This document shows positions 25,848-48,200 of a stretch of 64,000 nt of DNA, one piece after another. The position numbers were made by a program, and so were the translations under genes. How positions within the stretch are numbered: position 1 is the stretch's first letter; each line of letters opens with the position of its first letter. The notes beneath the pieces were generated by a model. It saw only the letters and a list, made by a program, of their open reading frames with translations, did no database searches and had not been told where the DNA came from. This stretch comes from Kutzneria viridogrisea. GTDB taxonomy: Bacteria; Actinomycetota; Actinomycetes; Mycobacteriales; Pseudonocardiaceae. The stretch is from contig JACJID010000007.1 of assembly GCA_014138725.1 (NCBI GenBank), forward strand, positions 248,001 through 312,000. The letters are read 5' to 3'.

Positions 25848-28543
<2,696 letters not shown>

Positions 28544-31198: not shown

Positions 31199-32206
31199 AT
31201 GGACCCGACAATCATCGAACTCAAGGCCGAACTGCGGGGTTTGTGCAGGGGAAGGGGGGTGCAGGACGCGGATATCGGCGAACGGGTCGGCCCGCACCTG
31301 GCACAGCTCTGCGGCATCGGGCCCGGTGACCGAACAGTGCGGGTACGCGGCCTGCTCGTCGACTACCTGCGGAATTTGATCAAGGACCTGCCCGACGAGT
31401 TCCTGCTGGTCACCGTCGCGGCCTTCGGGCTCAACGACACCCTGCGCGGACCGTACCTGGACGCGCGGCTCGCGAAGGTCAAGGACCAGATCGACCGGGA
31501 GAAGCGCACAGTTCTGCGCTGGCTGGACAAGGCATGCCTGCTGCTCGCGCAGGGTGCGGTCGAGCGGGCGGAACCGGAGCGGACAGCGCCTGGTGCCACC
31601 GGTCCCTGGCACACGGCCGAGCTCCAGGCCTCGGTGGTGCTGGACCTGCCGGTGCCCGAGGTGATCGAAACGCGCAGGATCGTCGCTGATCAGGACGATC
31701 TGGAGGCGGTCGAACTCTCCATGACCCTGGAACCCCCGCCGGGGTGGACCGGGGAGGGATCGCCGCGGGAACTCGGGCTGGACGTGCTGTACGGCGGCTT
31801 GCTCGCGAAACGGGTCATGAAGTCGACCAGGCGGGTGGGGTTCGTGCTCCGACTGCCCCACCCGCTCGGCCGGAACAAGGAGCACGAGTACGCGGTGCGC
31901 GTGCGGTTCTCCCCGAACCAGCCGATCGCGCCGTACTACGTGTGCACCCCGAGCTACCCCTGCCGCCTGTTCCGGCTGCGCGTCCGGTTCGGCCCCGAGC
32001 GCGTCCCGGGATCGATATGGCGGCTCCACGAGGCCTTGGCGACCGAGGTCGGCGACTCGCCGGAGAACCGGAAACAGGTCTTCGCGGATCCGTGCGGGGA
32101 GGTGTACTCGGAGTTCTCCGACCTGGTGCCGCGCTCCTCGTACGGGATCGCCTGGAGCCAGGACCTCAGCCCCGTCGGGGGCGCAGGTGGCCGATCCCCG
32201 AGTTGA
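31199..32206 (+). CDS. Conserved actinobacterial protein of unknown function
   Basis: A 335-residue protein. The first 115 residues are helical (LKAELRGLCRGRG..., then LARVKDQIDREKRTVLRWLDKA-like text) and resemble an N-terminal domain I have seen in many streptomycete proteins of unknown function. The C-terminal part is beta-rich with PSYPCRLFRLRVRF and ends in SSYGIAWSQ, also a recurrent pattern in that group. The ATG at 31199 follows GGAGGAAG. Its 3' end overlaps the 3' end of the converging TIR gene by 41 bases, so the two share antisense sequence. It could sense or regulate the conflict island, but no function is known to me. Confidence 0.7.
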   Translation: MDPTIIELKAELRGLCRGRGVQDADIGERVGPHLAQLCGIGPGDRTVRVRGLLVDYLRNLIKDLPDEFLLVTVAAFGLNDTLRGPYLDARLAKVKDQIDREKRTVLRWLDKACLLLAQGAVERAEPERTAPGATGPWHTAELQASVVLDLPVPEVIETRRIVADQDDLEAVELSMTLEPPPGWTGEGSPRELGLDVLYGGLLAKRVMKSTRRVGFVLRLPHPLGRNKEHEYAVRVRFSPNQPIAPYYVCTPSYPCRLFRLRVRFGPERVPGSIWRLHEALATEVGDSPENRKQVFADPCGEVYSEFSDLVPRSSYGIAWSQDLSPVGGAGGRSPS

Positions 32207-33029
32207 CCAGCTTGTGGATCATCTCCGGGGGCAGTCCGGAGTACCCGTTCGTGCGGTAGGTGGTCCGGCAGACCGTTCCGTCGCTGTCCCAGGTCTCCAG
32301 TTCGACCTCGAGATCGATCATGCTGCCCTCGGTGATGTGCAAGGCCGGAAGCGGCTGGTCGGCGATCTCCTGCCCGCGATGGCGCAACTGGTAGTGGAAG
32401 GTCAGGCCCACCTTGCCGCCCAGTTCGGTCACCTGGTCCGGAAGCGCGAGCGACGTGCGCACGGCTTTCTCCAGTTCTCGGCCGGTGGCCGAGGAGGGCA
32501 CCGCGACCGTGTGCGCCACGGACAGGGCCCGGTTGCGCACGTAGAGCACGCTCGTCGGGCCCTCGCCCAGGTCCACGCCCACGGGTGCGGGCAGCACCGG
32601 CAGCCCGACAGCCTGGTCCCGGCGCCAGGCCGCCGCGAGTTCGTCCGCGACCGTCTCCCAGCTGCCGAAGGCGTCCAGGTACCGGCGCATCGTCAGGATC
32701 AGCGGCAGCGGGGTGTCGTCGAGCCGCACCACGAACAGGAAGCAGCGCCGGTCCTCCAGGTCGCGCGCGAGCGCCGTGGTCCACTCCAGGTCCACCCAGC
32801 GGCGGCCCACCGTGTTCCGCGACCACAGCAACACGAAGTAGTCGGACTGGGTGAGGGCGTCGTTGATGGTCAGCACGAGGTCCTGGCCCGGCAGGATGTC
32901 CCGCGCGTCCACGAATGGGGTGACACCGCGTTCCCCGAGTTCCCTGCCGAGCCGCTCAGCCATCGGCCGATCGTTGCCCGCGAAGGAGATGAAGACCTTG
33001 GGTCGGCCGGACCTTGCGGTGAAAGGCAA
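32166..33029 (-). CDS. TIR domain protein with ubiquitin-like C-terminal domain
   Basis: A 287-residue protein. Residues 11-135 are a TIR domain: KVFISFAGND (first strand and loop), ILPGQDLVLTINDALTQSD, and WVDLE at 78-82, fitting the WxxxE helix whose Glu is catalytic in NAD+-cleaving TIRs. Residues about 155-245 read like a beta-grasp/ubiquitin-like fold: VAHTVAVPSSATGRELEKAV, then QLRHRGQEI, then HITEGSMIDLEVEL. The TIR call is firm; the ubiquitin-like call is pattern-based. The start is TTG 33029 with GGAGG four bases upstream, inside the 3' end of the CHAT gene (74-base overlap). It is the last gene of the minus-strand run and may be the NAD+-depleting effector. Confidence 0.85.
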   Translation of the reverse strand: MPFTARSGRPKVFISFAGNDRPMAERLGRELGERGVTPFVDARDILPGQDLVLTINDALTQSDYFVLLWSRNTVGRRWVDLEWTTALARDLEDRRCFLFVVRLDDTPLPLILTMRRYLDAFGSWETVADELAAAWRRDQAVGLPVLPAPVGVDLGEGPTSVLYVRNRALSVAHTVAVPSSATGRELEKAVRTSLALPDQVTELGGKVGLTFHYQLRHRGQEIADQPLPALHITEGSMIDLEVELETWDSDGTVCRTTYRTNGYSGLPPEMIHKLVNSGIGHLRPRRG

Positions 33030-35748
33030 AGCTCCTCCACTTGTCGAGTTCCCGCCGCAGGCGCAGGCGGGTCGGGCCCACCCCGGTCTGCGGGCCGGTG
33101 TCGCCGTGCAGCGTCCAGCAGGCCCACCAGGCAGGGTGGTCGTGAACGGTCAGGTCCGTCCGGGTGCGCAGGGCGCCCGCCTGGACGTCGAGCAGGGCGC
33201 GCTGGAGCGCCACGTCACGCGGCAGGTGGCGGATGTACCGCCCGAACCTGTCGAGCACGAAGGCCGCCACCCGGTCCTCGGCGACCCACCTGGACGCCAG
33301 CACCGAGGCGGCACCCGCGACCACCGCGGCACGCACCAAACCAGTGCGTTCCTCCCGGCCGCGGCGCTTGGCCATGCCGGACTCGCAGGCGCCGAACACC
33401 ACGGTTCCGCAGTGGCTCAGGTCCATCCCCTGCAGGGATTCGGGCCTCAGGTGCCCCTGCGGGCCTTCCGGAGCGAGCTCCAGGTACGACTGCGCTGGGT
33501 CCTCGTGCGCGTGCTTGCCGTGGCTGTCGATGCGCACCCAGTGGTGGCGGTGGGCTCGCAGGCGCTCCCGCAGCTCACCCGGCGTGGCCTTCTCGCCCTT
33601 CAGCACGTTCCACCACTTCCAGGTGAAGTACCGGCTGGCCTTGGTCAGATCGGAGGCGGGCGGCCGCACCAGCAGCGGGCGGTCACCGCGTTGCCGCTGG
33701 GCGCGCCGCCGGAGCGGGCCCAGCGCGGAAAGGCAGGGCAGGTCGGACAGCGCGTACCGCAGACCGAGGCGCTCACCGGTGCCCGGTACCGGCAAGCCCG
33801 CGAACGGGACGTCGGACAGCGCGCCACCCGCCACGATCGCGATCCGGCTGACCCCCGGCGGGATCACCCGCCCGACCACCTCGGCGACGCCGATCCTCTC
33901 GGCGAGCACGGCGAGGGAGCGTTCGAAGCTGCCATCGCTGATGGCGTGGTCCAGGGTTTCCTCGCCCCAGAAGGCCTTGTGGCTGTCAACCGCTCCTTCG
34001 AGGTCTTTCCGTTCCACCGCAACGCTGACGTAGTCGACCCGGTCGCGGCTGACAATCGCGTGGTGGACCTGGCGCCGGGTCACGTGCATCATCCAGACGG
34101 CCTGGGATTCGGGCAGCTCACGGGTTGTCCCGCACAGCCACCGCCACGAGCCCACGGGGTCGTTGGGCCGGGGCAGGCCCCGGGTGAGCGCTGTCGCGTC
34201 GGGGTCGATGGCGCTGAGGATCGTCGCGCCCCGCGCCGCTTCCATGGCCACGACGACACCGGCCGCGGCTTCGGCCCTCGCTCGGTTGCGGCTCGCTTCC
34301 CCGCCAGGGGGCGAGGTTCCGGCGTGGCTCCGGTACGCCGCGGCGGCGGCGATGACCTTCTCGTCCTGTTCGGTACGGGCGGCCTGGAGCATCTCGACCC
34401 GCACCTCACTGCGCTGCCGGGCGGCCACGTCCTCCTCGATGCGGTGCGCCTCGTCCCAGCACTGTGCGGCGCGATCATCGCCTCCCTCGTCCCCGGCCAG
34501 CCGGAAGTACGCGTGGCCGAGCAGGCGCAGTGCGAATGCCCTGACCTCCGCCAGCGGGGTACCCTCGGCCCGGTCCATGACCGTGACGAGGTGCTTGACG
34601 GCTTCGACGAGGTGGACGCGTTCGCCGGTGAAGTTGTACCCGGCCAGTTCGAGTTCGCCCGTGACGAGGTGCCAACTGGTGACAGCCCGGTCACCGCACG
34701 CCCAATCGCGGACCCGTAGCAGTGTGCTTTCAGCCTCGTCCAGCCGCGAGGCACGGTCCTCGTCGCCGAGGTGGCGATCGTGTTCGAGGTCGTTGAGCCG
34801 GGTCTCGGCGATCAAGCGGTGGGCATGCCAGAGGCCGCTGTGGAAGTGCGGTGTGGCAGGCAGGACCGTGCTGTTCACCCTGGCCAGCATCTCCTCCGCC
34901 GCCGCGCGGTCGGGTGCCTGCGCGGCGGCCTCCGCCAGCCGTGCGTACAGCTGTTCGGCCGCCGCGTACTGGCGGATCATCCGGAGCAGCACGATGAGTT
35001 CGCATACCACCGGCAAGCGCTGGGCTCGATCGACACCCGCATCGTCCACGCCGCGCCGAAGTACGTCAGCGGCTTCCTCGAAGCGCAACTCGCGCTTGAA
35101 CGCGAGAGCGAGTCGCAGGTAGTCGGCGGCGGTTCGCGGCGGCGTGTCCCGGAGTTCCTCGGGCGATGCCGTTGTCTCGCCCTGGTGCAGTCCGATCAGG
35201 ACCCGGTCGTGGTCGATCCGCGCGACCCCGGTCTGGTTGCCCGCCGAACCAAAGGCGTTCTCCGCTTCATCCAGCCGTTGCCTGGCCAGGTCGAGGTCCC
35301 CGCGGTCGGCTGCGGCCAGACCCTCGACCCTGAGCAGTCGAGCGTGGTTGTCGGCGCTCAGCAGCCAGGTCTGGTCGCCGAGCGCGGCGCGAACCGACCG
35401 GGTGTCGGCCGTGGCGGCGGCGTGGCTGCCCAGCTTGCTGCGGATCTCAGCTCGCACCAACAGGATCACGGGATGCTCCCGGTCGGAGCGGCCGAGGTGC
35501 TCCTCACAGCGGCGCAGGGCAAGCGTGGTGTCCCCGAGCGCGAGCAGTTGCGCGAGGTGTTCGATGACCAGCGCGGTCCACAGCTCCTTGTCGGCGGCCA
35601 AGGAGCAGGCCCGGCGGTAGGCGTCGTCCGCACCGCGCAGGTCCTTGCGCTCGCACGCCAGCTTGGCCGCGGTGACCGCCCGCGCCAGCGGACTGCCCTC
35701 CACGATGGGGATCGGCCCTCCGTTGCGCGGAGTCCTCGGTGCCGTCAC
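32956..35748 (-). CDS. TPR-CHAT caspase-like protease
   Basis: A 930-residue protein. The first ~530 residues are tetratricopeptide-type helical repeats (for example ADRGDLDLARQRLDEAENAF). The C-terminal 330 residues are a CHAT domain, a caspase/separase-clan cysteine protease, with the catalytic pair apparent as His743 (IDSHGKH) and Cys788 (FGACESG). CHAT proteases act in programmed-death and conflict systems, for example gasdermin or Csx29-like contexts; the target here is unknown. GTG 35748 overlaps the lipoprotein stop as GTGA. The gene continues 74 bases past the TIR start, so the two are tightly coupled. Confidence 0.88.
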   Translation of the reverse strand: MTAPRTPRNGGPIPIVEGSPLARAVTAAKLACERKDLRGADDAYRRACSLAADKELWTALVIEHLAQLLALGDTTLALRRCEEHLGRSDREHPVILLVRAEIRSKLGSHAAATADTRSVRAALGDQTWLLSADNHARLLRVEGLAAADRGDLDLARQRLDEAENAFGSAGNQTGVARIDHDRVLIGLHQGETTASPEELRDTPPRTAADYLRLALAFKRELRFEEAADVLRRGVDDAGVDRAQRLPVVCELIVLLRMIRQYAAAEQLYARLAEAAAQAPDRAAAEEMLARVNSTVLPATPHFHSGLWHAHRLIAETRLNDLEHDRHLGDEDRASRLDEAESTLLRVRDWACGDRAVTSWHLVTGELELAGYNFTGERVHLVEAVKHLVTVMDRAEGTPLAEVRAFALRLLGHAYFRLAGDEGGDDRAAQCWDEAHRIEEDVAARQRSEVRVEMLQAARTEQDEKVIAAAAAYRSHAGTSPPGGEASRNRARAEAAAGVVVAMEAARGATILSAIDPDATALTRGLPRPNDPVGSWRWLCGTTRELPESQAVWMMHVTRRQVHHAIVSRDRVDYVSVAVERKDLEGAVDSHKAFWGEETLDHAISDGSFERSLAVLAERIGVAEVVGRVIPPGVSRIAIVAGGALSDVPFAGLPVPGTGERLGLRYALSDLPCLSALGPLRRRAQRQRGDRPLLVRPPASDLTKASRYFTWKWWNVLKGEKATPGELRERLRAHRHHWVRIDSHGKHAHEDPAQSYLELAPEGPQGHLRPESLQGMDLSHCGTVVFGACESGMAKRRGREERTGLVRAAVVAGAASVLASRWVAEDRVAAFVLDRFGRYIRHLPRDVALQRALLDVQAGALRTRTDLTVHDHPAWWACWTLHGDTGPQTGVGPTRLRLRRELDKWRSFAFHRKVRPTQGLHLLRGQRSADG

Positions 35749-38700
35749 TGCTTGCACTCCGGCACATCCGGGGTGTTCTCCGGGCAGACGAGCAGGATCG
35801 GCACGACACCGGTCGTCTGCCCCGAGGCGGCGGGAGTTGTGGGGCTCGGGCTCGTGGTCTGCACCGTGCTGGTGGAGACCCTGCCCACGGTGCCCGTGGT
35901 GCCGCGCAGTGGCGGACCAGAACCGCCGGAACCGCCGGCGCGGACGAGCTGCCACCGCTTGCCCGCGTACTCGCGGAGGTCGGGGTGCAGGTCCACGGCC
36001 TTGGCGGTCTGCTCGGCCACAGCCGGAACGACGACCACCTGCGCGTCGCGGGACACCTCATCGGCCATGATCGAGCCTTCCCGCAGGCTGTAGGCCACAC
36101 GGGCGCTCTCCAGCAGGTACACGTCCCTGTCCTGCCCCAGCGCTTCGCCGAGCTTCTCGTGTTTGACCTGTCCACCGGGTTCGGTGCTGACCTTCGTCTG
36201 GCCGACGTGCAGGATGCTCTTGCCCTGGATCTGGAACAGCGGTGCCGCTTCACCGGGGACGATCGCGTGGAGCGCGATGGGTGCCCAAGGCTCGAAGTTC
36301 GAGACGAGGACCACCCGGTCCGCACCGACGAGGGCCACTCCGTTGCCATCCAGCGCGAGTGCGCGGTAGTAGCCGTCCTTGGCCTTCGCCGCCTGCTGCA
36401 TCGCCGCGTCGATGACCTCGAACTTCGCGAGCGCGGCCGCGTTCTCCGGCTTGCCCGCCAGGTCCTTGCGCTGCACTGCCCAATGATCGTCCTCCCGGTA
36501 CACGGTGAAGCCGTGGCCGTCCGGGGTGGTCACCGAGATCTGCCTGGCGTTCTTGTCGGGTGCACCGGCAGGCGAGATCCTCGCGGGTTGGTCCTTGGTC
36601 GCCAGGCTGACCCGCAACCACTGGTCGGGCCCACCGAGATCGGGCGGCCCGCGCAGGGTTGCCTGGCTGAACTCGGCCGTACCGCCCTGCTGGCGCGGGG
36701 CACCGAGGCGGAAGGTCAGTTCGCTGCCCGGCGGCTTCGCCCCCGGGGTGGTCTCCAGCCAGGGGCCGTCGATCCCACCCAGCTGATACTGGACCTGCCC
36801 GGACGGGTCCTGGTGGCTGAGCACGGCACCGGAGCCCGGTTCCACCCCCGGCCGGCTCTGTTCCGCGTTGAGCAGCCGCAGTGCGTTGTCCACGACGCTG
36901 GACTGCCACGCGAGGGTGACCGAGTCGTGGTCCTTGCGCACGTCGAGCGCGCCCAGTTCCTTGCCCTGGACCTCGACCCGCTGCGTGATGTGCCCACGGT
37001 CGGCGGACGTGTCGTTGCGGACCTGCCGAGGAGTGCCCGCGTCGAGGTTGACCTTCACACCGCCGAGCGAGCCCACCTTGCGGCCGCTGGCCGTGGTCTC
37101 CACGGCCACACTGCCCTGGGCAGGTGCCGAGAACGTGTACTGGCGGTAGCTTTCAGCCTTGCCCGCGTCGTCCAGCGACACCTGCTTGAGGTGACCGGTG
37201 CCGGTCGCGGGGTCGTAGGCGGAGCCCTGGTCGTACACCCCGGCCCGCCCCACCGACGAGGGCAGGTCCGGGTGGTGGTCCCGCTTGCCCTGCCGAGTGA
37301 GCAGGTTGCCGAGCGAGACGCCGCCGTTGATCGCCGTGAACCCGCACTCCTCAAAGGTCTTCGAGGGCTTCGACAGGACCGCTTCCGTGTCGCCGGCCGA
37401 AGGGGGCGACACGAAGTCGATCGCGGACCGTTCCCGAAGTTCGGTATGCTTGGCGTACCACTCGGCAAACTTGATCTTGGGGTCCGCCGTGCCGCCCGTG
37501 TCCGGAAGTCGCTTGCCCGCCTTGGTGACCAGCCACTCCAGCGCGCCGCTCCAGCGCATGATCTGGTCGAGCCGTGCAAACTGGACTTCGTAACTAGCGA
37601 CGGCATCATAGTTCTGGTCCCACCACGCGAGGCCGCGGCCGAACGCGTAGCTGGGTTCCACCTCGCCCGCGTCGCCGTTGGACTTGGCGAACAGCCGCGT
37701 CGCCTGGGCTCCGATGGTGACGCGGTTGGCGGTGTAGGCGAACCCGGATTCGTTCTGGCCGAACCACAGCCTTCCCGACTCGCTGATGGGTTCGCTGCTC
37801 TCGGGGCAGTGTCCCCAGGGGATCTTCGCGTCCGGGTCGGCGACGAATCCGGGGACGGCCTTGTCGGGCACGCCGCCACCCACGCCGGTGGACCACTGCT
37901 TGGCGATGTAGTCACCGTAGTAGAGCGTCATCCCGACTTCGGTGCCCGCGAGCGGTCCGTCGTACCGCGCCTGGGAATAGCCCGACTGCCCCTCGAGTAA
38001 CTGCTTGAGCGCCCACAGCCGGGTGCGGTCCGCGGGCAGCCCCGCAGGCGGCGGTGTACCGCCGAAGAGCGCGTCGACGACCTCCTGCCGGAGCTGGTGC
38101 ACCTCGGGGCTGTCGCTCTTGGCAGCCACCGCCTCCGCCACGCTCAGGCTCAGCCCGGGAACAACCGCCAGCACGTCGGCCGCGGTCTTCACCGGACCGG
38201 GATCCAGGGAGAAACCGGGTGACGGGCCGGAGGTCGCGGTGTAGCCGCGCTGGATGACGGCGACGTCCTCGGCGCTCAGCGGTGCGGCCGGTACATCCGG
38301 CCAGTTCCAGCCCTCAGCCCAGACCTCGTTGCCCCGCAAGGACAACCCGGTGAGATGGCGGGTCTTGGCCAGGAAGCCGATCAGCCCGCCCGCCTCGTCC
38401 ACGCGCTGGGTGACGTACCCGTTGGCCGCCCGGACCTCCGGCGTCGCGACGGCCTTGCCGAGTGACACCGAGATGGCCCGTTGACCGGTGAGTAGCTCGT
38501 AGTCGTGCACCTGGACCTGCGGCGGATCCTCGCCCGCATCGGCGCGGTACTGGTCCACCAGCAAGCCGATGGTCCGGGCCCGATGCTGGTCACCACGTGG
38601 CACCAGCAGGTGCAGCACGCCCTTGCCGTCGTAGAGGGCACGTCCCGGCCCCGTGGGCTGCCGGGACAGGTCGCTCAGACCTGGGTCGCGCACCGGCAGT

Positions 38701-38990
38701 GAGTCGTAGGTCGCCTCGCGCAGCCGAGCCGCGTCCAGCTCCAGGTACGAAGCGAGCCCGGTGCGCGCCCAGTCGCGGAGCTGGGCCTCTGCCGTAGCCG
38801 GGTCCAGCCCGTCGAGCCGTGCTGCGGCCGCCGCGTAGGACAGCACGAATCCCGGCTCCGCGGGTGGCGCGGGATTGCCCGCGGGTGGCGGCGCCGACGA
38901 ACCTGTGCACCCGGCAACCGCGGTCAACAGGACGCAGAGGATCGCAGCGACCAGTGTTCGGTTCCCACGGAACCGGCTTTGCTGGAACAT
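35745..38990 (-). CDS. Very large secreted lipoprotein of unknown function
   Basis: A 1081-residue protein with a lipoprotein signal: basic start, hydrophobic helix and lipobox V-A-G-C in LLTAVAGC, then a proline-rich linker. I recognise no enzyme domain. The body mixes a helical segment near 100-250 with long beta-rich stretches toward the C-terminus (repeated strand-turn text such as RVVLVSNFEPWAPIALHAIV), and a Thr/Ser/Pro-rich tail near 1030-1060. It should sit outside the cell, anchored to the membrane, in the same transcript as cytoplasmic CHAT and TIR proteins. ATG 38990 follows GAGGAA; GTG 39008 is less likely. Confidence 0.75.
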   Translation of the reverse strand: MFQQSRFRGNRTLVAAILCVLLTAVAGCTGSSAPPPAGNPAPPAEPGFVLSYAAAAARLDGLDPATAEAQLRDWARTGLASYLELDAARLREATYDSLPVRDPGLSDLSRQPTGPGRALYDGKGVLHLLVPRGDQHRARTIGLLVDQYRADAGEDPPQVQVHDYELLTGQRAISVSLGKAVATPEVRAANGYVTQRVDEAGGLIGFLAKTRHLTGLSLRGNEVWAEGWNWPDVPAAPLSAEDVAVIQRGYTATSGPSPGFSLDPGPVKTAADVLAVVPGLSLSVAEAVAAKSDSPEVHQLRQEVVDALFGGTPPPAGLPADRTRLWALKQLLEGQSGYSQARYDGPLAGTEVGMTLYYGDYIAKQWSTGVGGGVPDKAVPGFVADPDAKIPWGHCPESSEPISESGRLWFGQNESGFAYTANRVTIGAQATRLFAKSNGDAGEVEPSYAFGRGLAWWDQNYDAVASYEVQFARLDQIMRWSGALEWLVTKAGKRLPDTGGTADPKIKFAEWYAKHTELRERSAIDFVSPPSAGDTEAVLSKPSKTFEECGFTAINGGVSLGNLLTRQGKRDHHPDLPSSVGRAGVYDQGSAYDPATGTGHLKQVSLDDAGKAESYRQYTFSAPAQGSVAVETTASGRKVGSLGGVKVNLDAGTPRQVRNDTSADRGHITQRVEVQGKELGALDVRKDHDSVTLAWQSSVVDNALRLLNAEQSRPGVEPGSGAVLSHQDPSGQVQYQLGGIDGPWLETTPGAKPPGSELTFRLGAPRQQGGTAEFSQATLRGPPDLGGPDQWLRVSLATKDQPARISPAGAPDKNARQISVTTPDGHGFTVYREDDHWAVQRKDLAGKPENAAALAKFEVIDAAMQQAAKAKDGYYRALALDGNGVALVGADRVVLVSNFEPWAPIALHAIVPGEAAPLFQIQGKSILHVGQTKVSTEPGGQVKHEKLGEALGQDRDVYLLESARVAYSLREGSIMADEVSRDAQVVVVPAVAEQTAKAVDLHPDLREYAGKRWQLVRAGGSGGSGPPLRGTTGTVGRVSTSTVQTTSPSPTTPAASGQTTGVVPILLVCPENTPDVPECKQ

Positions 38991-39096
38991 GGAATTCCTC
39001 GGGTTCACTGAGATCGCTCAAGGGAATGTCGACGATAAGTCGTTTCGAGCGGTGTGCACGCAGCATAGTCGCCAGACGCGCCGCCGAACTGGTTTG

Positions 39097-40914
39097 TCAT
39101 TCTTGTGTCTCCGTTGTGCCACAGGCATTGCACACTGTTTCGGCGGCATACTTCCGCGCCAGTTCCCCGGTGGATCGCGCCAGCACCTTCCGCAATCCCC
39201 GGTCGTCCTGTGCGCCGAGGGTGCCCGGCAGCGCGGCCGGGTCGCCGCTGAACACGAGGCGCCCCTTCGTCCCGATCACGACCACCTGGTCGGCGAACCT
39301 GAGGTCCGCCACGGAGCGCGCGGTCATGAGCACCGTGCAGCCGAGGGCGGCCACCTCGCGGAGGCCGGACATGACAGGTCGGGACATGCGGAGACCGAGG
39401 CCGGAGATCGGCTCGTCCAGCAGCAACAGCCGTGGCTCAGCGAGGGCCTCGACCGCGATCGACAGCTGCCTGCGCTGCCCCTTCGAGAGCTGATCCACCC
39501 TCTTGTCCACAAAGGACTCCAGGCCGAGCAGGCGGCACACGCGGGCGACCGGGGCGCGCAGCTGCCCGGACCGGTCCGGCCGGATGTCCGACGGGCGCTG
39601 TGCGCGGTCCGCGTGCTCGAGCTCCCTGCGTACCGTCCACTTCCCGCGCAGACGGGGGTGTTTCGGCACAAACCCCGTCCAGGTCCTGATCTGGTGCAGG
39701 TGCGTGCGCATGTTCAGGCCGTGCAAGTGCAGAGCGCCGCTGGAGGGCGACTCCCCCAGCAGGGCCGAGAACAGCGCGACCGAGCCGGGCTGGGTTGGTT
39801 CGAGGATCGCCAGCACGGTCCCGGCCCGCTGGGCGAAGGACACCCGGGTCAGCTCGGGCACCACCTTGTCGCCGTGCACCACGTGGCTGGACAGAGCGCG
39901 GACGAGGAGCCCGAACCGGTCGACCGGGGTCCTGATCAGGTGCTCGCCGTCCGCGCTGACCCGGAAGCGGTGATCGGCGAGGTAGAAGTCCGAACCGGGT
40001 TCGAGGTGGACCCGTCGCGCAGGCCTTCCGGCGTGGCAGGTCCGGCTACCGCGACCGAGGTCACGCAGCAGGGTGCGATCGCCTTTCCTGGTCAGCACGG
40101 CATGTCTTGCCGCCACGCCGTAGCCAGGCACGACCAGGTCGGCGTGGTCCGCGCAGGATCCGATGACCAGCCCGTCGCGGATCGGGTGGATTTCGCCGTC
40201 CAGCTCGGGTCTGGGCGCCTGGTCCACAGCGGGCGCCAGGTCGGGTGCGGGCGGCAACGGGGTTGGCTCGGCGAGCCCGGCCTGCTCCCGCAGCCATTCG
40301 GGCAGGGTGGGTTCGAGCAGGTCCATCGCCTGCGCCACCAGCCCGGCCCGGGGATGACTGCGGACCAGCTCGCTTCGGTACGACGCGAGTCGCCGGTGAC
40401 AGCGCGCCTGCACGACTCGTACCCGCTCCCCCACGCCCTCAGCCTGTCTTCGGAGCCACGTCTGGGTGGCCGCCAGTTCCCGCTTGCTGTCTTGGACTTC
40501 AGTCCGCGCGGCCCGCACGGCTTGCCTGGCAGTCAGCAACCCGCGTGCGTGCTCGCGCAGCCTGCGTCGCCGGATCTCCGGCGCGGCACGGCGCTCCTCC
40601 CCCGGCCTGCGGTGGGTCAGCACCCCGTCCTCCGGCTGGACCACCAGTTCGCGAGCCCGTTCCCTGGCTCGCCCCAGTACGGACTCGGCCTGCCGCAGCC
40701 TGTCCAGCGCGCGGGCACGTCGGCGCTGGTAGTCGGCGTGGATCGCTTGGTAGCGCAGGCGTTCCTGCTCGTACTGGGCGCAGGCCCAACCGGTCAGGCG
40801 ATCGCGGTGCGGGGTGGACAGCGGTGCACGACCGGGCAGCGGTATGCCCGCGCTGCCGTCGCGCCACCCGTGCCACCGGTCCGCCAGGCGCGCCACCGGG
40901 TCGTAGGAGGTCAT
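39097..40914 (-). CDS. FHA-like/ABC-ATPase-like protein with degenerate Walker A
   Basis: A 605-residue soluble protein. Residues about 45-190 are a charged coiled coil. Residues 240-325 look like an FHA phosphothreonine-binding domain (IGSCADHADLVVPGYGVAARH), but the usual GR and S-x-x-H residues are altered. Residues 345-560 are an ABC ATPase: signature LSKGQRRQ at 475-482 and Walker B LLLLDEP at 496-502 are intact, whereas the Walker A position reads LEPTQPGSVA with no lysine. It resembles the FHA-ABC exporter Rv1747 in layout but lacks a membrane domain. Probably a non-hydrolysing signalling or scaffold protein. Confidence 0.82.
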   Translation of the reverse strand: MTSYDPVARLADRWHGWRDGSAGIPLPGRAPLSTPHRDRLTGWACAQYEQERLRYQAIHADYQRRRARALDRLRQAESVLGRARERARELVVQPEDGVLTHRRPGEERRAAPEIRRRRLREHARGLLTARQAVRAARTEVQDSKRELAATQTWLRRQAEGVGERVRVVQARCHRRLASYRSELVRSHPRAGLVAQAMDLLEPTLPEWLREQAGLAEPTPLPPAPDLAPAVDQAPRPELDGEIHPIRDGLVIGSCADHADLVVPGYGVAARHAVLTRKGDRTLLRDLGRGSRTCHAGRPARRVHLEPGSDFYLADHRFRVSADGEHLIRTPVDRFGLLVRALSSHVVHGDKVVPELTRVSFAQRAGTVLAILEPTQPGSVALFSALLGESPSSGALHLHGLNMRTHLHQIRTWTGFVPKHPRLRGKWTVRRELEHADRAQRPSDIRPDRSGQLRAPVARVCRLLGLESFVDKRVDQLSKGQRRQLSIAVEALAEPRLLLLDEPISGLGLRMSRPVMSGLREVAALGCTVLMTARSVADLRFADQVVVIGTKGRLVFSGDPAALPGTLGAQDDRGLRKVLARSTGELARKYAAETVCNACGTTETQE

Positions 40915-40929
40915 CGGCCCTCGCTCGCC

Positions 40930-42108
40930 TCAGGCCGAACAGGTGATGTTCATGATCACCTTGCGGTTCTGGCCCGCCGGTCCCGGCAGCAGCCGTCCGT
41001 CCGGACCGACGTCGGCCAGGTGACCCGGCCAGTCGGTGCCGACCCCGCGGGCGGTCAGGTGATCGGCCGCCACCTGGAACTCGACCAGCACCGCCTTGAC
41101 CGCCTCGGCTCGCCGCGTGGACAGCTCCACCCGCCCGGCCATCGGGCCGTCCGTGGCGGTCGTCCCGATCAGCTCGGCGCGGTGCCTGCCGTCCCGCAGT
41201 ACCTCGGCGAACTTCCTCAGGGTCTCCCGCGCCGCCTGCGGGTCCCGGAAGGTGTCGGTGTCGGCGTTGAACGAGATGTTGTCCCGCTCACCGAGTTCCA
41301 CCGTCCCGCACAGCTGGGGAGCCGGTGCCGGTGGCGGCGCGACGACCGCGACCTCGGGTTTGTCCTCGACGGACTTGTCCGTGTTGCCCTGGGCAATCGT
41401 GACCACGCAGGCGCCACTGGCCTCGGCGACGGCCTTCCACGTGTCCACCACCTTGGCGCGCAGGTTGTTGTCCAGCACCGGTTGCGGCGGGGCGGTGTTG
41501 CCCAGTCCGACCAGGAGCACGGTGCGGCCGTGCAGGTCGGGCAGCAGCCTGCCCTCGGTGAGGTACTTGGCGACCTCCGCCGGGTTCGCCTGGAGCAGGC
41601 CGTCCTTGGCGAAGTCCAGCGGGGCGACGGTCTGCAACCCCGAGTCGACCAGCACGACCGTTCCGCCGGGCTGGGTGGTCCTGGCACCGACGGACAGGGC
41701 CGTCAGTACGTCCGCCTGCGGGGAAACCGCCGTGATCTGTTTGCCGAACGCCGACTGCGCCTCGGCGAGGTAGCTGGTGACGGCCTGCTTCTCGGCTTCG
41801 GGGTTGCCCGCGGTGGGCGGCGGCGCCTGGTCGAAGACGATCCGCGGTTGCCCGTCAACCCTGATCAGGGTGAGCCGCTGATGGTTCTTGGCCGCCGCCC
41901 GCATCAGGTCCTGGACTTCCGGGGGCAGCTTGGGCTTGGGCACGTTGGCCCGCGCACCGACGGCGACGGCCAGCGGTGCCGAGTTGGACAGCGGGCAGGG
42001 CGAGGCCGGTGTGACGGGCTGGACCGTGGAGGGAGCCGGCGCGCAGCCGCACATCAGCAGCGGCAGAACGGCCAGCAGGGCGGCGGAGAACACGGCGGTG
42101 CGCTTCAT
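40930..42108 (-). CDS. OmpA-family lipoprotein
   Basis: A 392-residue secreted protein with a signal peptide ending in a Cys-rich lipobox-like LMCGC. The middle (about 45-210) resembles a von Willebrand A-like fold (TVVLVDSGLQ, TVLLVGLGN). The C-terminal ~120 residues are an OmpA-like peptidoglycan-binding domain (ISFNADTDTFRDPQAARETLRKFAEVLRD..., then STRRAEAVKAVLVE and RKVIM). It would tether to the cell wall. It starts 15 bases after the membrane-protein gene and ends 15 bases before the FHA/ABC-like gene. Confidence 0.85.
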   Translation of the reverse strand: MKRTAVFSAALLAVLPLLMCGCAPAPSTVQPVTPASPCPLSNSAPLAVAVGARANVPKPKLPPEVQDLMRAAAKNHQRLTLIRVDGQPRIVFDQAPPPTAGNPEAEKQAVTSYLAEAQSAFGKQITAVSPQADVLTALSVGARTTQPGGTVVLVDSGLQTVAPLDFAKDGLLQANPAEVAKYLTEGRLLPDLHGRTVLLVGLGNTAPPQPVLDNNLRAKVVDTWKAVAEASGACVVTIAQGNTDKSVEDKPEVAVVAPPPAPAPQLCGTVELGERDNISFNADTDTFRDPQAARETLRKFAEVLRDGRHRAELIGTTATDGPMAGRVELSTRRAEAVKAVLVEFQVAADHLTARGVGTDWPGHLADVGPDGRLLPGPAGQNRKVIMNITCSA

Positions 42109-42123
42109 GATCCTGTCCTGTGA

Positions 42124-43389
42124 CTACGCGCTTGCGGGATAGGTAGGGGCTTGGCCGCCGGGAGCCGGTACGAGGTGGATGAGCGCGTCGGTCAGCGCCG
42201 GGTCCTGCGCCTTGGCCGCGATGAGCTCCCGCGCGTAGCTCTTGAGCTCCTTGGCGAACGCGAGAACGATCTCCCGGTGCCGGTCGCGCTTCTCCTCGGC
42301 GGCGGCCAGAGCGGAGAAGTGCGTTTCCGCCAAGGCTTTCTGCCGCTGGTACGCCGCGGTGCTCAGGGCGACCCGCTGGACCGCTCGATCGTGAACCTTG
42401 GCTGCTTTCAGGTAGGCGCTCTGCAACCTGTTGGTGGTGAGGTAGGCCCCCACCCCGGCCACCATCCCGCTGCCCAGGTAGAGGGCGAGGAAGGTCGCGG
42501 CGGCGGGAACGGCGAAGGACTCCCCCGACTGCGACTGGTCCGCCTCGCCCAGCGAGAAGTCCCCAGAGGTGACCGGCACACTACCGAACTTCAACCGCAC
42601 CCAGGCGGCGAGCAGGCCCAGCAGGAGCCAGAGCAGGGCGCACAGCGGCGCACCGGCCGCGGGCACCCACCGTACCCCGGCCTTGCGGTCACGCAGCATC
42701 ATTCCGGCGCAGTGCGCGAGGGCGAGCACGATCGCGGTGAACCCCAGGACCAGTACCAGCGCGACGGCCTGGGCCTGGTCGCGCATCACGAGTTGGATCA
42801 CCTGGAAGAACGCGGAGATGTCGGCGCCCACCGCGAACAGCAGCGCGATGAGGTAGGCGTAGCTGCCCCTGGTGCGACCGGCCAGCAATGCCGTGTCGGC
42901 GTAGCCGGAGTCCGCGTACGGCACGCTCGGCGGTGCCTGCGTGGCACCGGGCTCCTCGGTGGCCCGCGGTGCGAGCACTCCCGGCGAGGCGTTGCCGTGC
43001 ATCCTCGCCTCGGCGGTGTCGCGCGCCTTCCTCAGTTCTGCCAGGCGGAGTTCCTCGTGCCTGAGCTGGATCTCCAGCCTGGGCAGGGCCGCGTTCGCCC
43101 GGCCGGCCCGCACCTCCGTGTGCAGCCGGTAGTCCTGGTAGTCGCAGTCGAGCTCCCCCAGCCGCTGCTCCGTCCTCGCGTCGATCCACGAGTCCAGGAC
43201 GTCACCGCTGGCCTCGTCCACCGCGCCGGGCGCCAGCCGTTCCACGTGTTCGGCGATCTCCCGGTACGCCGCGGTGCGGCCGACCGCCGCGGGCTCGAAC
43301 TCGCTCACGTTCGCACCAGTGAAGTCAGCACGCCGACCACGACGAAACGCCACGCGCGGAAATTTCATGATTGCCATCGGCTTTCTCAT
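42124..43389 (-). CDS. Four-helix membrane protein with flanking coiled coils
   Basis: A 421-residue integral membrane protein. A charged coiled-coil segment is at about 85-130, four hydrophobic helices are at about 176-200, 208-231, 245-265 and 291-318, and a second coiled coil follows at about 325-400. I recognise no family. The topology, helices bracketed by coiled coils, suits a membrane-anchored scaffold or channel. The ATG at 43389 overlaps the upstream gene stop as ATGA; ATG 43377 and 43368 are alternatives. It is the second gene of the minus-strand run. Confidence 0.75.
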   Translation of the reverse strand: MRKPMAIMKFPRVAFRRGRRADFTGANVSEFEPAAVGRTAAYREIAEHVERLAPGAVDEASGDVLDSWIDARTEQRLGELDCDYQDYRLHTEVRAGRANAALPRLEIQLRHEELRLAELRKARDTAEARMHGNASPGVLAPRATEEPGATQAPPSVPYADSGYADTALLAGRTRGSYAYLIALLFAVGADISAFFQVIQLVMRDQAQAVALVLVLGFTAIVLALAHCAGMMLRDRKAGVRWVPAAGAPLCALLWLLLGLLAAWVRLKFGSVPVTSGDFSLGEADQSQSGESFAVPAAATFLALYLGSGMVAGVGAYLTTNRLQSAYLKAAKVHDRAVQRVALSTAAYQRQKALAETHFSALAAAEEKRDRHREIVLAFAKELKSYARELIAAKAQDPALTDALIHLVPAPGGQAPTYPASA

Positions 43390-44258
43390 GTTTGCTCAGC
43401 CACTTCCGTCGGCGAAGGAACCGCCGGAACGAATCGCTCGTTGACCTCACCACCCTGCGGATGGCTCCGGACGAAGGACGCCCAGTAGTTGAAGATCCTT
43501 CTCGTTCCGTGCGCGCAGGCCTGCTGGACGCGGCTCCTGGTCACGTCGTCGAGGATTGCCATTCCGGATTCGACGGCGGCGACCCGCTGGAGCAGTTCGC
43601 CGAGGCGCTCCTTTTCCTTCGTGTAGTGCTCGACCGCCGCCACCCGGCACCGTTCGAGCTCGGCGAGCCGCCGTCGCCGCACGTAGCACTCGGAATGCAG
43701 CACATCCGCCCCGCGCGCCCACCTGGTCAGGTCCTGGTCCTTCTCGAGGTCGGCAAGCGCCTGGGCGGCCAACTCGGTGCGCTCGATCTGCCCGTCCAGC
43801 GGCGCGAGGTGCTTCGACCGCAGCCGCTGCATCCAGGCCTGCTCCCGGTGGTGCCGCGCCACCTCCCAGGACATGCGCTGCTCGGTGAGGCTCACCAGTT
43901 CCGCCACTCGTGGCGTGGTCACGGTGCGCCGACCTGCCTCGGGAGCGGTTTCCGGCACCCCCACGATGCGCCTGCGGCCGTCGCGACGGCCGGCGCGCGC
44001 GTCAGCCCAGCGCGCCGTGGGCCAATAAGCGACTTGCCGAACCGACCGGCGCCGCCACCCGAGATAGGGGTTGTGCAGCGCCAGCCAGGACGGGACCAGA
44101 AACGATCCAGAAATAGCATCCCCCAGGCGAATGGCAAATACGTACTCGTGGGCAGATTCTGCATCTCGCACCATTTGCACATCAAGTACCAAATCAGTGC
44201 CATTGCTAGGACACGGTAGTGACATCCGCCCGGGCAGGCGGATCGATGACACTTCCAC
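43386..44258 (-). CDS. Hypothetical coiled-coil protein
   Basis: A 290-residue protein of unknown function. The N-terminal ~75 residues are beta-rich (LVLDVQMVRDAESAHEYVFAIRLGD), followed by an Arg-rich linker, and residues about 120-250 are strongly helical and charged (coiled coil: LAALDGQ-like, KEKERLGELLQRVAAVESG). No signal peptide is seen. The start is uncertain: GTG 44258 gives the listed length, ATG 44225 is an alternative. It heads the minus-strand run and is divergent from the SLATT-type gene 83 bases away. Confidence 0.6.
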   Translation of the reverse strand: MEVSSIRLPGRMSLPCPSNGTDLVLDVQMVRDAESAHEYVFAIRLGDAISGSFLVPSWLALHNPYLGWRRRSVRQVAYWPTARWADARAGRRDGRRRIVGVPETAPEAGRRTVTTPRVAELVSLTEQRMSWEVARHHREQAWMQRLRSKHLAPLDGQIERTELAAQALADLEKDQDLTRWARGADVLHSECYVRRRRLAELERCRVAAVEHYTKEKERLGELLQRVAAVESGMAILDDVTRSRVQQACAHGTRRIFNYWASFVRSHPQGGEVNERFVPAVPSPTEVAEQT

Positions 44259-44341
44259 GCCACTTCACGGACCTTCCTGTCCCAAGCCGTCACGGGTCAT
44301 AAGCTCCCGTTCAATCGAAGCGCGCGGAGGGGATGCGAGGC

Positions 44342-45244
44342 GTGGTCACCACGGAACGAGGTCTGGTCAACCCGGATCTGCCCGGACTGTTCGAGGCCGC
44401 GGACTCCGCTTCGCTGGCCGGACAGCGGCAGTACGCCGCAACGGTGCGGCTGCGCCTGCTGCTCGCGATCCTCGCCGCCATCACGGGGACGATCAGCTTG
44501 CGGACGGGCCCGGCCGGGGTCGACCTGGCCGCGGTGTGCACCGCGATAGCACTGACCGCCATCTCGCTGACCCAGCTCAGTCTCAAGACCAACCGGCCGG
44601 AGGAAAGCTGGTACGACGGGCGGGCTCTCGCCGAGTCCGCCAAGAGCCTCGCCTGGCGCTACAGCGTCTGCGGGGTGCCGTACGCCAAGCAGGACAACGA
44701 GAAGGACGCCGAGCACCGGCTGGTCGAGCAGCTGTCCCGCTTGTTGGACGAGGCACCGACCACGAGCGTCAAACTGTCGCGGCGGCCCGCGGTCACCGCG
44801 ACCATGCACCAGCTGCGCGCCGGGGACCTCGCCACCCGCAAGGCCGCGTACCTGCGGTTCCGCATCGGCGACCAGCAAGCCTGGTACGCGCGCAAGGCCG
44901 AGTTCCACGAGCGTCGCGCGGCCCGGTGGCACACCGCGCTGCTGGTCATCGAGATACTCGGCGTCACGGCGGCGTTGGCCAAGGCGGCCCGGTTCATCGA
45001 CCTGGACCTCGCGGGCGTCGCCGCGGCACTCATCGCCTCGGGCACGGCGTGGATCAACCTGCGCCAGCACGCCACGCTCGCGCGGGCCTACACCTTCGCG
45101 GCCAACGAGTTGACGATCGCCCACTCGCGCCTGGAACTGGTCGAGGACGAGCAGACCTGGGCGGTCGAGGTCGCCGACTCCGAGGAAGCCGTGAGCAGGG
45201 AGCACACCATGTGGCGAGCATCCCGGTCGCGCCCGCAGGACTGA
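44342..45244 (+). CDS. SLATT/DUF4231-type membrane protein
   Basis: A 300-residue protein with two pairs of membrane helices (about 27-45 and 55-75; later 205-250). Between them is the conserved ESWYDGRALAES...LAWRYSV segment of DUF4231/SLATT-type proteins, and helical NEL-rich text follows the second pair. SLATT proteins are predicted membrane effectors in nucleotide- and NTPase-dependent bacterial conflict systems; pore formation is a prediction from the literature. GTG 44342 is chosen because GGAGG lies 11 bases upstream, while ATG 44333 is only 2 bases from it. It converges on the PKS with only 16 bases between stops and no visible terminator. Confidence 0.8.
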   Translation: MVTTERGLVNPDLPGLFEAADSASLAGQRQYAATVRLRLLLAILAAITGTISLRTGPAGVDLAAVCTAIALTAISLTQLSLKTNRPEESWYDGRALAESAKSLAWRYSVCGVPYAKQDNEKDAEHRLVEQLSRLLDEAPTTSVKLSRRPAVTATMHQLRAGDLATRKAAYLRFRIGDQQAWYARKAEFHERRAARWHTALLVIEILGVTAALAKAARFIDLDLAGVAAALIASGTAWINLRQHATLARAYTFAANELTIAHSRLELVEDEQTWAVEVADSEEAVSREHTMWRASRSRPQD

Positions 45245-45260: not shown

Positions 45261-48200
45261 TCAGTCGAAGGCGCTGCGCATCCAGTCCTCCATCAGAGCC
45301 GCCGTGTGCGGGGCGTGTTCCTCCAGCATGGTGAAGTGGTTGCCGCGAGTCACGGCGGCAGTGTGCTCGAAGGGCCACACCGGCTCCCAGTCCGGCGGCC
45401 ACCCCTCCAACGGGCTGCCCGCACGCACGAACAGCGATGGGATCGGCAGGTCGGTGGGCGTCCAGTCGAACCTCTGGTAGTGCAGCATGGCGGTGATCCA
45501 GCCGTTGTCGCCGGACAACGCGTAGTTCGGGTCGTCCAACCGGTGCTGGAGTTCCTCCCCGAGTCCGGGCAACAGGCGGACCAGCCGCTCGTACTCGCTG
45601 GGGATGTAGCTGTCGAGCATCACCACCCCGGCGGGCGGGGTGCCCTGCTCGTACAGGTGCCGGGCGAGTTGGTGGGCGACCAGGCCGCCGGAGGACAGCC
45701 CGGTGAGCACGAAGGGCCGGTCCCCCAGTTCGGCACGCAGTCCCGCGGCGTGCACCTCCAGCAGCAGGTCCCGGGTCCTGGGCAGTGCCTCGTCGCGGAG
45801 GAACCCCGGCTGCCGCAGCGCGAAGACGTCCCGCGTACCGTGGAACGGCCTTGCCAGGCGGGAGTACTGCACCGGATCGGAGGTGCCGACAACCGCGGTG
45901 ACGCACACCAGCGCCGGTCCCCGTGCGCCGGTGGCCAACCGGACCGGCCGGGGCGGTCGCGGCAGCTGGTCCAGCGAGGTGAACCAGGCGCGCGACTGCT
46001 CCCAGTCAGAGGTCCCGGCTCGGATGATCTGCTGCCTGACGTCCTCGCCCTCGTCCGCCGCGATGGCGTCGTCCTCGCCCCTGGCCAGCAGCTCCGCCAG
46101 GTATCGGGCCAGTACCACCGGGGTCGGGTGGTCGAAGGTGGCGGTGGCCCGCAGCCGCAGTTCCAGCGCCTCGGCGAGGTGGTTGCGGATGCGGACCGCG
46201 GCCAGCGAGTCCACCCCCATCTCCAGGAACCCGGCGTTCGGGCTGAGCTCCGCGGTGCCGTCATGCCCGAGGGCCAGCGCGACCTTGTCCAGCACCAGGT
46301 CCACCAGTGCCCGTTCCCGCTCCACGCCGGTGAGCGGGTCGAACAGCGGGCGCAGGCTCCCGGCCGGGGTTTCCCGCCGGTCCACCAGTTCCCGCAGCAG
46401 CGGCCGGTCCTGGGCGCCGACCAGGGTGAGCCGGGCGGGCACCAGCACGGGGTTGGCGAGGCCGACCGCGGCGTCGAACAGCGCCAGTGCCTCCTTTGTG
46501 GACAGTGCGTCGACCGCCGGGTCGAGGTGGCGGGTCATGTCGCTGCGCTCCGCCCACAGGCCCCAGGCCAGCGAGATCGCGGGCAGTCCCTGGGCACGGC
46601 GGTGGTGGGCCAGCCCGTCGAGCACGGCGTTGGCGGCGGCGTAGTTCGACTGGCCCCCGCTGCCCGCGGTGGCCGCGGCCGAGGAGAACAGCACGAACGC
46701 CTTCAGCGGCAGGTCCCTGGTCAGCTCGTGCAGGATGAGCGCGGCCTCCGCCTTCGGCCGCAGCACCGTGTCCAGGCGCTCCTGGGTCATGGTCAGCACC
46801 ACGCCGTCGTCGAGCACCCCGGCCGCGTGCAGCACGATCGTCGGCCGGTGCTGCTCGAGCAGCCGGGCCAGCTGCTCCCGGTCGGCCACGTCGCAGGCGG
46901 CCGTCGTGGCGGTGGCGCCCAACTCGGCGAGCTCGTCCACCAGGTCCGGGGCGCAGCCACCGCGGCTGACCAGCACCAGCCGTCGCACCCCGTGCGCGGT
47001 CACCAGGTGCCGGGCCAGCAGCCCGCCGAGCGTGCCGGTGCCGCCGGTGATCAGCACGAGGTCCTCGGCCCCGGCGAACCTCGCCGGGGCGGGCGGGTGG
47101 ACCCGCACCAGGCGGCGTGCCAGCACCCGGCCGCCGCGCAGGGCGAGCTCGGGTTCGTCGGCGGCCAGCGCGGCGGTGATCGTCAGCGGGGTGATCTCGT
47201 CGGCGTCCAGCAGCACGAAGCGGCCGGGTTCCTCGGTCTGGGCCGATCGCACCAGACCCGTGACGGCCGCGCCCGGCAGGTCGCCGACGTCCTCACCGGT
47301 CACGGCCGCCACCGCACCCGAGGTGAGGAACACCAGCCTGGACGCGGCGAACTCCGGGCGGGTGATCCACCGCTGGACCAGCGCCAGCGCGCGGTGCGTG
47401 GCTTCCCGCACCGATCCACCGGAGCCGGCGACGAGCACCGCCCTTGGCGCGGGCAGGCCAGCCGAAACCACGTTCTCCAGCGCCTCCAGATCCGCGAACA
47501 CCGGGAAGTGATCGGTCTCGATCCCCACGGCCGCAACGACTTCCGAGGCAGTACTGCTCGCGGCGCGCACTTCGACCCACTTGCTCCGGAACAGCGCGTC
47601 CCGCGGTGCGTCACCCCGTGCGGCGGCCGGTCGCAGCACCAGCGAATCCACCGACAGCACCGGTGCACCTGTTCCATCGGTCACGGTCAGCCGCACCGAG
47701 TCGTCCACCGAGCCCCGGAGCCGCACGCGCAACACCGCCGGTTCAGTGGCGTGCGCGGTCACCCCGGTCCAGGCGAACGGCAGCACCGCTCCATCGGTTG
47801 CCGTGACCTCACCCCCGAACCCGATGGCGTGCAGCGCCGAGTCCAACAGCGCTGGGTGGACCACGAACCCGCGGACGTCCACCGGGCAGGCCACCTCGGC
47901 GAAGACCTCGTTGTCGCGCCGCCACACCGCCCGCAATCCCTGGAACGTGGGACCGTAGCGCAGACCGCGCCCGACCAGTGCCGGGTAGAGACCGTTGTGC
48001 GACACCGATTCCGCGCCCGCAGGCGGCCACTGCCCGATCGGCTCGGGCTCGGCGTGCTCCCGGCTCAGCACACCTTCGCCGTGGCGTACCCAGTTCGCAC
48101 CGTCCACTTTGGCATGCAGGAGCAGGTTGCGCCGCCCGGTGCCGTCCGGCGCGCCGACCCGCAGCTGGACCGTGGCCGCGGCGTCGTCCGGCAGCACCAA

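Follow-up and report, generated by a model that had tools for sequence, protein, structure and literature searches.

A lipoprotein-like protein, a CHAT protease and a TIR protein form a rare actinobacterial cassette that may link the cell envelope to a cytoplasmic protease

A region of the Kutzneria viridogrisea genome in which genes for cytoplasmic death-type domains stand in line with genes for exported and membrane proteins raises the question of whether these genes form one system. The window is the whole stretch of DNA that was analysed, 64,000 nucleotides of contig JACJID010000007.1 (all coordinates are those of the window unless a locus is named); the host genome has 10.25 Mb in 11 contigs, with a completeness estimate of 100%, and its family is shared with Lentzea, Saccharothrix, Crossiella and Saccharopolyspora. 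The minus strand carries seven co-directional open reading frames (ORFs), accompanied by a divergent SLATT gene and a neighbouring HTH-STAND-TPR gene. We find that the region is composed of two modules arranged head to tail. Module B (32166-38990) encodes a large lipoprotein-like protein (LP), a CHAT protease and a TIR protein with a possibly ubiquitin-like tail (TIR-Ubl), whereas module A encodes a coiled-coil (CC) protein, the four-transmembrane-segment protein TM421, an OmpA lipoprotein and an FHA-ABC protein. Module B is a rare actinobacterial cassette. We favour, with a probability of about 0.53, the reading that it would act as an envelope-to-cytoplasm switch, with module A as its likeliest relay in the host genome.

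The genes of module B overlap one another. The LP gene (35745..38990, minus strand) shares GTGA (35745-35748) with the CHAT gene (32956..35748, minus strand, GTG start; Pfam CHAT, E-value 7.7e-26), which overlaps the TIR-Ubl gene (32166..33029, minus strand, TTG start, 287 aa; Pfam TIR_2, 4.6e-25) by 74 bases (32956-33029). LP belongs to no known family: no relatives were found in Pfam, NCBIfam or PADLOC, and the top PDB match had an E-value of 0.47. It is classed as lipoprotein-like by its lipobox and cysteine counts. Its start is more likely the ATG at 38990, behind a GAGGAA, than position 39008, from which its residues are numbered here. The strict lipobox pattern occurs in 7/23 LP rows and the aligned cysteine in 14/23; visual inspection shows a hydrophobic stretch at the beginning of several further rows, and some of the called starts are probably wrong. 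All 23 rows keep Cys 401, 555 and 1085, and 20 of them keep Cys 1075, a pattern that would fit an exported protein.

LP matches were found in 20 of the 297 family genomes (in G197 by two end fragments only), and a phylum-wide search of 395 genomes gave no match besides the window. When 84,980 species, each represented by one genome, were scanned by a pattern-based method, 26 loci came up, all actinobacterial by their titles, of which 15 coincide with matches in the family genomes; G000, G106, G239 and G299 bring the total to 30 distinct LP loci (our own gene caller split LP in L104 and L118). CHAT adjoins and follows LP in 30/30 of these loci. TIR-Ubl comes next after CHAT in 23/30, counting L096, where it was located by tblastn on the same contig (L032), and L101, where it was confirmed inside the CHAT frame; it is missing from G106, G239, G299, L114, L116, L119 and L120. 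CHAT and TIR-Ubl are predicted to be functionally coupled, a coupling that gene fusion shows directly, because CHAT, TIR and the C-terminal domain form one polypeptide in five loci (G013, G157, G185, G301 and L101).

The His-Cys dyad of CHAT (His743 and Cys788 in the window, counted from the GTG at 35748; residue 789 in an alignment starting one codon earlier) is intact in 21/21 aligned rows. With its CHAT domain and this dyad, the window protein, whose N-terminal part is TPR-like, is a predicted caspase-like protease; its PDB matches are designed TPR proteins and CHAT domain proteins. TIR-Ubl, by its N-terminal TIR domain and the catalytic-type glutamate Glu82, is a predicted NADase whose nearest solved relatives are the bacterial TIR proteins 7uxr, 7uwg and AbTIR. 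The alignments bear out Glu82 and Cys788 as a preliminary description of this region, made from the sequence alone, had named them. That description had also proposed NAD+ loss as an output; as a common output this is weakened by the absence of TIR-Ubl from 7/30 loci and by the replacement of Glu82 in 4/16 aligned rows (L098, L113, L117 and L118), the residue being present in the other 12, the window included. To judge from these residues, the constant activity of the cassette is proteolysis, not NAD+ cleavage. The C-terminal domain of TIR-Ubl resembles, on a weak basis, a beta-grasp or ubiquitin-like fold. No Pfam Ubl match was found among 13 rows; a redesigned ubiquitin ranked second in the PDB list for this domain (weak match, E 0.45), and alignment by hhalign with the two YukD domains of the host genome was collinear but weak, so that the Ubl label is plausible. 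No hydrophobic segment was found in TIR-Ubl, and CHAT has one borderline segment, inside the CHAT region.

Relatives that have CHAT without LP also indicate that the two belong together. With the C-terminal part of TIR-Ubl as query, 30/297 genomes gave a match, 22 of them in one Lentzea-type genus (g8), and in 20 of these 22 a fused CHAT-TIR-Ubl gene occupies a single syntenic site. Whole LP is present at this site only in G013, G157, G185 and G301, and G197 retains only the LP ends. In 18 fetched stretches tblastn gave six weak LP fragments (E 0.01 to 9.6), three of which (E 0.01, 0.03 and 4) map, on the strand of CHAT, to its start or immediately upstream of it, a placement with a rough p of 1e-5 if a 200-base target is assumed. 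Because of this placement, LP was likelier lost than gained in the genus. Of 16 LP-less rows (15 rows plus G197, all from the Lentzea-type site), 10 have a broken CHAT dyad, in L168 through a deletion, as against none of the 24 LP-bearing rows examined, which were drawn from the 30 loci as the 21 aligned rows and three more; G287 and G292 (each with only a 250-aa piece) and L165 (the second gene of G157) were left out. Fisher's test over all rows gave 9e-6, with kinship ignored. On a tree of 19 g8 rows (without L168), the window and L101, LP changes three times and the dyad four times, and every broken dyad falls on an LP-less row. It is likely that the protease is worth keeping only together with LP, and that LP and CHAT behave as a unit.

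The adjacency of LP and CHAT in 30/30 loci would also be expected of a toxin-immunity pair, in which LP restrains a lethal CHAT-TIR. However, the tree calls for three or more changes of state in LP, for which loss is the simplest account, and CHAT-TIR-Ubl outlasts them, its dyad intact in 6/16 rows; such persistence is not expected after loss of an antitoxin, and the two proteins are predicted to lie on opposite sides of the membrane. We consider this explanation very improbable, and LP as an antitoxin was set aside in view of the LP-less CHAT-TIR-Ubl genes. The same genomes bear on a further possibility, that CHAT and TIR simply serve in a housekeeping system of the envelope or of development (cell-wall stress, secretion, division or sporulation-linked death). 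A fused gene at one syntenic site in 20 Lentzea-type genomes is unlike a mobile island, 72,556 plasmid records yielded no LP match, and viral contigs no confirmed one. On the other side, LP is patchily spread (20/297 in the family, 0/395 in other genomes of the phylum), it has been lost repeatedly and the protease has decayed, and STAND, DO-GTPase and TIR genes neighbour various loci. These features make a housekeeping role distinctly unlikely; the conflict-type character suggested earlier is supported.

If LP is exported and CHAT is cytoplasmic, something has to connect them, and the surroundings of many LP loci offer a candidate. A tubulin-like gene lies within the fetched stretch (up to 23 kb, often ended by contig ends) of 13/30 LP loci, in at least four arrangements; it was called by the Tubulin_2 profile in L042 and by blastp homologues in the other loci. 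It stands before LP, with DO-GTPase and GAP1-like genes, in L096 and L097; it accompanies a DO-GTPase homologue in L113, L117 and L118 (L117, which was scanned, also has an extra TIR gene and a CRP-like regulator); it is divergent, with a vWA gene, in L100; and in seven loci it lies downstream of CHAT and a vWA membrane protein. A long tubulin match was found in 18/20 LP-matching family genomes versus 37/297 overall (of 57 genomes listed, 20 with short matches were dropped), and the Fisher p value is 1e-16 with kinship ignored. As a separate observation, the gene clusters c3, c4 and c5 occur in 7/7 of the tubulin-linked LP-CHAT loci L037-L043, c4 and c5 being divergent from LP; their members in L042 had no Pfam match.

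Genes for tubulin, cluster c33, a kinase-like protein, DO-GTPase and a GAP1-like protein are common to 12 tubulin loci, both LP-positive and LP-negative, and 11 of the 12 also have vWA. GAP1-N2-type, tubulin-containing DO-GTPase conflict systems are known in actinobacteria, where they were predicted from sequence (Kaur et al. 2020, eLife, PMC7159879). The LP loci resemble them in the 13/30 tubulin neighbours, accompanied by DO-GTPase or membrane vWA genes, and in the vWA-tubulin-kinase-like-DO-GTPase-GAP1-like core of 11/12 tubulin loci, only the twelfth being without vWA. The word CHAT has no occurrence in the main text of PMC7159879, in which we also found no LP-like protein named, and we found no literature report on what tubulin/DO-GTPase systems sense or do. 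In relatives the GAP1-like label expresses gene order and similarity only: Pfam GAP1 matched neither the window proteins nor the GAP1-like proteins of L033, L123, L124 and L127. Unlike these systems, the host genome has neither tubulin nor DO-GTPase, with zero matches to PF13809 (Tubulin_2) and to PF19993 (DO-GTPase2).

What the host genome has beside module B is module A. On the minus strand, the FHA-pseudo-ABC gene (39097..40914, 605 aa; Pfam ABC_tran 5.6e-14, FHA 8.4e-5) lies 106 bases from LP if LP starts at the ATG 38990. It is separated by 15 bases (40915-40929) from the OmpA-like lipoprotein gene (40930..42108, minus strand; Pfam OmpA 1.3e-11), and the latter by another 15 (42109-42123) from TM421 (42124..43389, minus strand), whose four hydrophobic segments lie between charged, coiled-coil-like regions. 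TM421 shares ATGA (43386-43389) with the gene of the CC protein CC290 (43386..43922, minus strand), which is related to the FHA-ABC N-terminus and probably starts near 43922-43907, the ORF being readable from 44258 and the coding signal running from about 43922. LP, CC290 and the 335-aa gene on the plus strand described below gave zero Pfam matches at E 0.1, and TM421 none above the cut-off. The FHA-pseudo-ABC protein consists of a coiled-coil-like N-terminal region, an FHA domain and a degenerate ABC ATPase. Compared with five homologues that have all three, it is without Walker A, the switch His and an ABC-2 membrane domain of about 280 aa, which justifies the earlier label of pseudo-ABC. 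The first description is also borne out by coordinates and Pfam matches for the seven minus-strand genes with their gaps and overlaps, for the divergent SLATT gene and for the HTH-STAND-TPR neighbour, and the envelope link drawn then is upheld by the predicted export of LP and the OmpA protein and by the hydrophobic segments of TM421.

Elsewhere, module A is an operon of its own, apart from module B. TM421 homologues occur in 39/297 family genomes, an OmpA lipoprotein adjoins them in 20/20 fetched loci, and a window-type FHA-ABC is present in five of these (L075, L076, L077, L079 and L080; in L079 without the N-terminal part by our own gene caller); the L075 homologue has an ABC2_membrane match at 9.1e-16. 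In part of its loci, module A sits among CHAT, TIR, phosphorylase and NACHT genes. A large-protein cluster recurs near it in L085-L090, L094 and L093, with Pfam CHAT in the three scanned loci, L086, L088 and L093. A TIR_2 protein was scanned in L077, with the same cluster in L075, L076, L078 and L079, and phosphorylase or NACHT genes occur in L080 and L081. The scanned neighbours in L083 and L091 are methyltransferase, metal ATPase, VKOR and glycosyltransferase genes, with no conflict genes. We also observed that L085-L090 and L094 share a cluster of large CHAT-type, coiled-coil, membrane, OmpA, kinase and ClpB-like ATPase genes (the last two scanned in L086), for which we know of no named system.

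Do modules A and B work together? With tblastn at E 1e-3, no TM421, CC290 or SLATT was found in the other LP loci fetched, FHA-ABC matched only ordinary ABC ATPases (three of four scanned), and OmpA gave one match, in L101. Conversely, LP, TIR-Ubl and SLATT were all without a match in the 20 module A loci, where CHAT matched once, weakly (L080, 40 bits). The preliminary description had taken the seven genes for a single island; since the two modules stand apart in the other loci fetched, save for the A-like pair of L101, and SLATT was found beside neither, one conserved seven-gene island is rejected. Of the co-occurrence it had asked for, the part that held is LP-CHAT-TIR, which stays together; the whole set and SLATT do not, a verdict that L101 softens for module A.

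The two modules may then be unrelated and self-sufficient, juxtaposed by chance, with SLATT as a third unrelated gene among conflict genes. In agreement with this, G013, G112 and G311, which have both modules, carry them at separate places, and genomes combine module A with LP no more often than chance predicts. In the window, though, the modules lie on the same strand, 88-106 bases apart, with no terminator-like site between them in a weak scan, and the FHA-ABC at the junction is without membrane domain and ATPase motifs, as if rebuilt. LP is enriched in FHA-ABC genomes (3/5 versus 16/291, p 0.002, a small subset picked post hoc). The distant L101 likewise has an OmpA/membrane-protein pair before its cassette. 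We regard chance juxtaposition as unlikely, if a serious rival.

L101 comes from a Micromonosporaceae metagenome-assembled genome. At L101:3231-9756 (plus strand) follow one another a TIR_2 gene, related to the TIR neighbours of module A (E 2e-17), a weakly STAND-like gene, a 284-aa gene with no Pfam match, an OmpA gene and a membrane-protein gene, and then LP and the CHAT-TIR-Ubl fusion. The OmpA gene (OmpA 1.1e-14, plus weak vWA matches) matches the module A OmpA profile by hmmsearch at E 1e-25, and no other gene called in the LP and tubulin loci matches that profile significantly. The membrane protein had no hmmsearch match with the TM421 profile; by hhalign it ranks first of 67 LP-locus membrane proteins against TM421 (score 32.4; next 24.4). 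An OmpA/membrane-protein pair is thus found upstream of the cassette in 2/30 LP loci, far apart, and the L101 junction supports, without proving, a working link between the modules.

In the reading that we favour, LP would be anchored outside the membrane and would sense an envelope event. Its signal would license the cytoplasmic CHAT protease, whose cleavage would be the core output, and TIR-Ubl would be an auxiliary, replaceable effector or adaptor; CHAT may cleave TIR-Ubl or other targets. A membrane relay would be needed because exported LP cannot touch cytoplasmic CHAT. In many relatives this relay may be the linked or co-resident vWA/tubulin/DO-GTPase system, and in the host genome the likeliest substitute would be the adjacent module A. 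The purpose might be defence or programmed death.

Several results weigh against this reading. Within the Lentzea-type genus alone, Fisher's test of dyad against LP gives only 0.087 (kinship ignored), the tree holds too few independent pairs for a pairs test, the dyad is kept in six of the 16 LP-less rows, and G197, mostly without LP, has an intact dyad. The LP/tubulin association lies partly between genera: shuffling within genera gave p 0.057 over 51 genomes and 0.008 over 60 (nine Lentzea-type genomes added), both sets being incomplete. G289 has LP but neither a tubulin nor a TM421 match. LP occurs with module A no more often than by chance (4/20 versus 39/297, p 0.31). As to L101, the hhalign probability between its membrane protein and TM421 is only 17%, its gene order differs from that of the window, and FHA-ABC is absent.

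A bolder reading makes LP, anchored in the envelope, the receptor part of a bacterial membrane death receptor, which would license a cytoplasmic caspase-like protease and TIR-Ubl across the membrane via interchangeable relays. These would be tubulin/GTPase in many relatives and an OmpA/four-transmembrane module in the host and the distant Micromonosporaceae, and in the host an ABC transporter would have been stripped to a phospho-reading FHA scaffold. We put forward this reading, its relays and its host-specific part alike, as tentative and rather doubtful.

Comparison with other systems indicates how far the cassette is new. Zorya comprises ZorA and ZorB, a coiled-coil-bearing membrane protein beside an OmpA-domain protein, and module A likewise has a membrane protein with coiled-coil-like parts adjoining an OmpA-domain protein; in contrast to Zorya, TM421 and the OmpA protein had no PADLOC match at E 0.1. 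PDB entries 8d9f and 7x8a (CHAT domain protein), which we take to be Craspase, that is the Csx29 TPR-CHAT protease of type III-E CRISPR, are the nearest natural solved relatives of the CHAT protein (E about 1e-3, below designed TPR proteins) and share with it a CHAT protease with a TPR-like part. However, no Cas match was found among the ten window proteins and no repeat array at 30.5-46 kb, and the partner in module B is an exported protein. The TIR protein recalls Thoeris and other bacterial TIR defences by its catalytic-type glutamate, and PADLOC TIR models match in part (best PDC-S66, 1.1e-9). It differs in that ThsB_TIR scores 20.4 bits, under the Pfam cut-off of 21.2, and ThcB4 37 bits against a cut-off of 220; moreover, no ThsA-type match occurs among the ten proteins, the window TIR has a Ubl-like tail, and the glutamate is not universal. 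Unlike the VMAP/MoxR-vWA ternary system, the ten proteins include no MoxR, vWA or VMAP. CHAT and TIR also occur in one polypeptide in a Thiohalocapsa target protein described with a diversity-generating retroelement (DGR) and a Trypco2 adaptor (PMC10907252), although neither DGR nor Trypco2 adaptor was seen at the window cassette. Outside supplements and subscription papers, the LP-CHAT-TIR cassette was not found in the literature, including PMC7159879, PMC11237479, PMC8195603 and PMC10907252. Module B is an uncharacterised envelope-linked module attached to, yet separable from, NTP-dependent conflict systems.

The remaining genes of the region frame the two modules. A 335-aa protein with no Pfam family (31199..32206, plus strand) turns up again next to TIR-Ubl in three loci of Saccharothrix, and in five loci it lies near module A; it may be an accessory common to both modules. 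Beside the same three Saccharothrix cassettes recurs the STAND neighbour, in the window an HTH-NB-ARC-TPR protein (28620..30821, minus strand; Pfam NB-ARC, HTH and TPR). The divergent SLATT gene (44333..45244, plus strand) encodes a two-transmembrane protein with SLATT_3 (1.3e-41) and SLATT_1 (3.1e-36); at E 1e-3 tblastn found it in none of 45 LP-locus stretches (18 family stretches, 26 contig loci and L003, many overlapping) nor in the 20 module A loci, and it is rejected from the conserved unit. The same SLATT_3 and SLATT_1 pair ends a GAP1-like protein of G013 (L123:2993-4954, minus strand); GAP1-like proteins with a C-terminal SLATT are described in PMC7159879. Two large polyketide-synthase-like genes (45261-57966, minus strand) border the SLATT gene, and a Fur-like regulator followed by a catalase-peroxidase-like gene lies at 25812-28543 (plus strand), all recognised from their translations. 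The gap between FHA-ABC and LP is taken up by a 31-codon ORF (39101-39006, minus strand), whose start overlaps the FHA-ABC stop (ATGA); it is perhaps a leftover or a coupled small peptide. A codon-bias gene caller called all seven minus-strand ORFs, with later starts in five, and was trained on the same seven genes, so that it gives no independent support. An Rfam search of the window gave zero matches, and a weak promoter and terminator scan nothing above shuffled sequences.

Through this cassette, tubulin/DO-GTPase systems are linked, in several mutually unrelated arrangements, with a single exported protein and a single intact protease. This gives the systems inputs and outputs that can be tested, and the Lentzea-type relatives that have no LP form a natural series of losses. 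Should LP be a receptor, module B would represent a trigger on the envelope side that acts on a caspase-like protease in Gram-positive bacteria.

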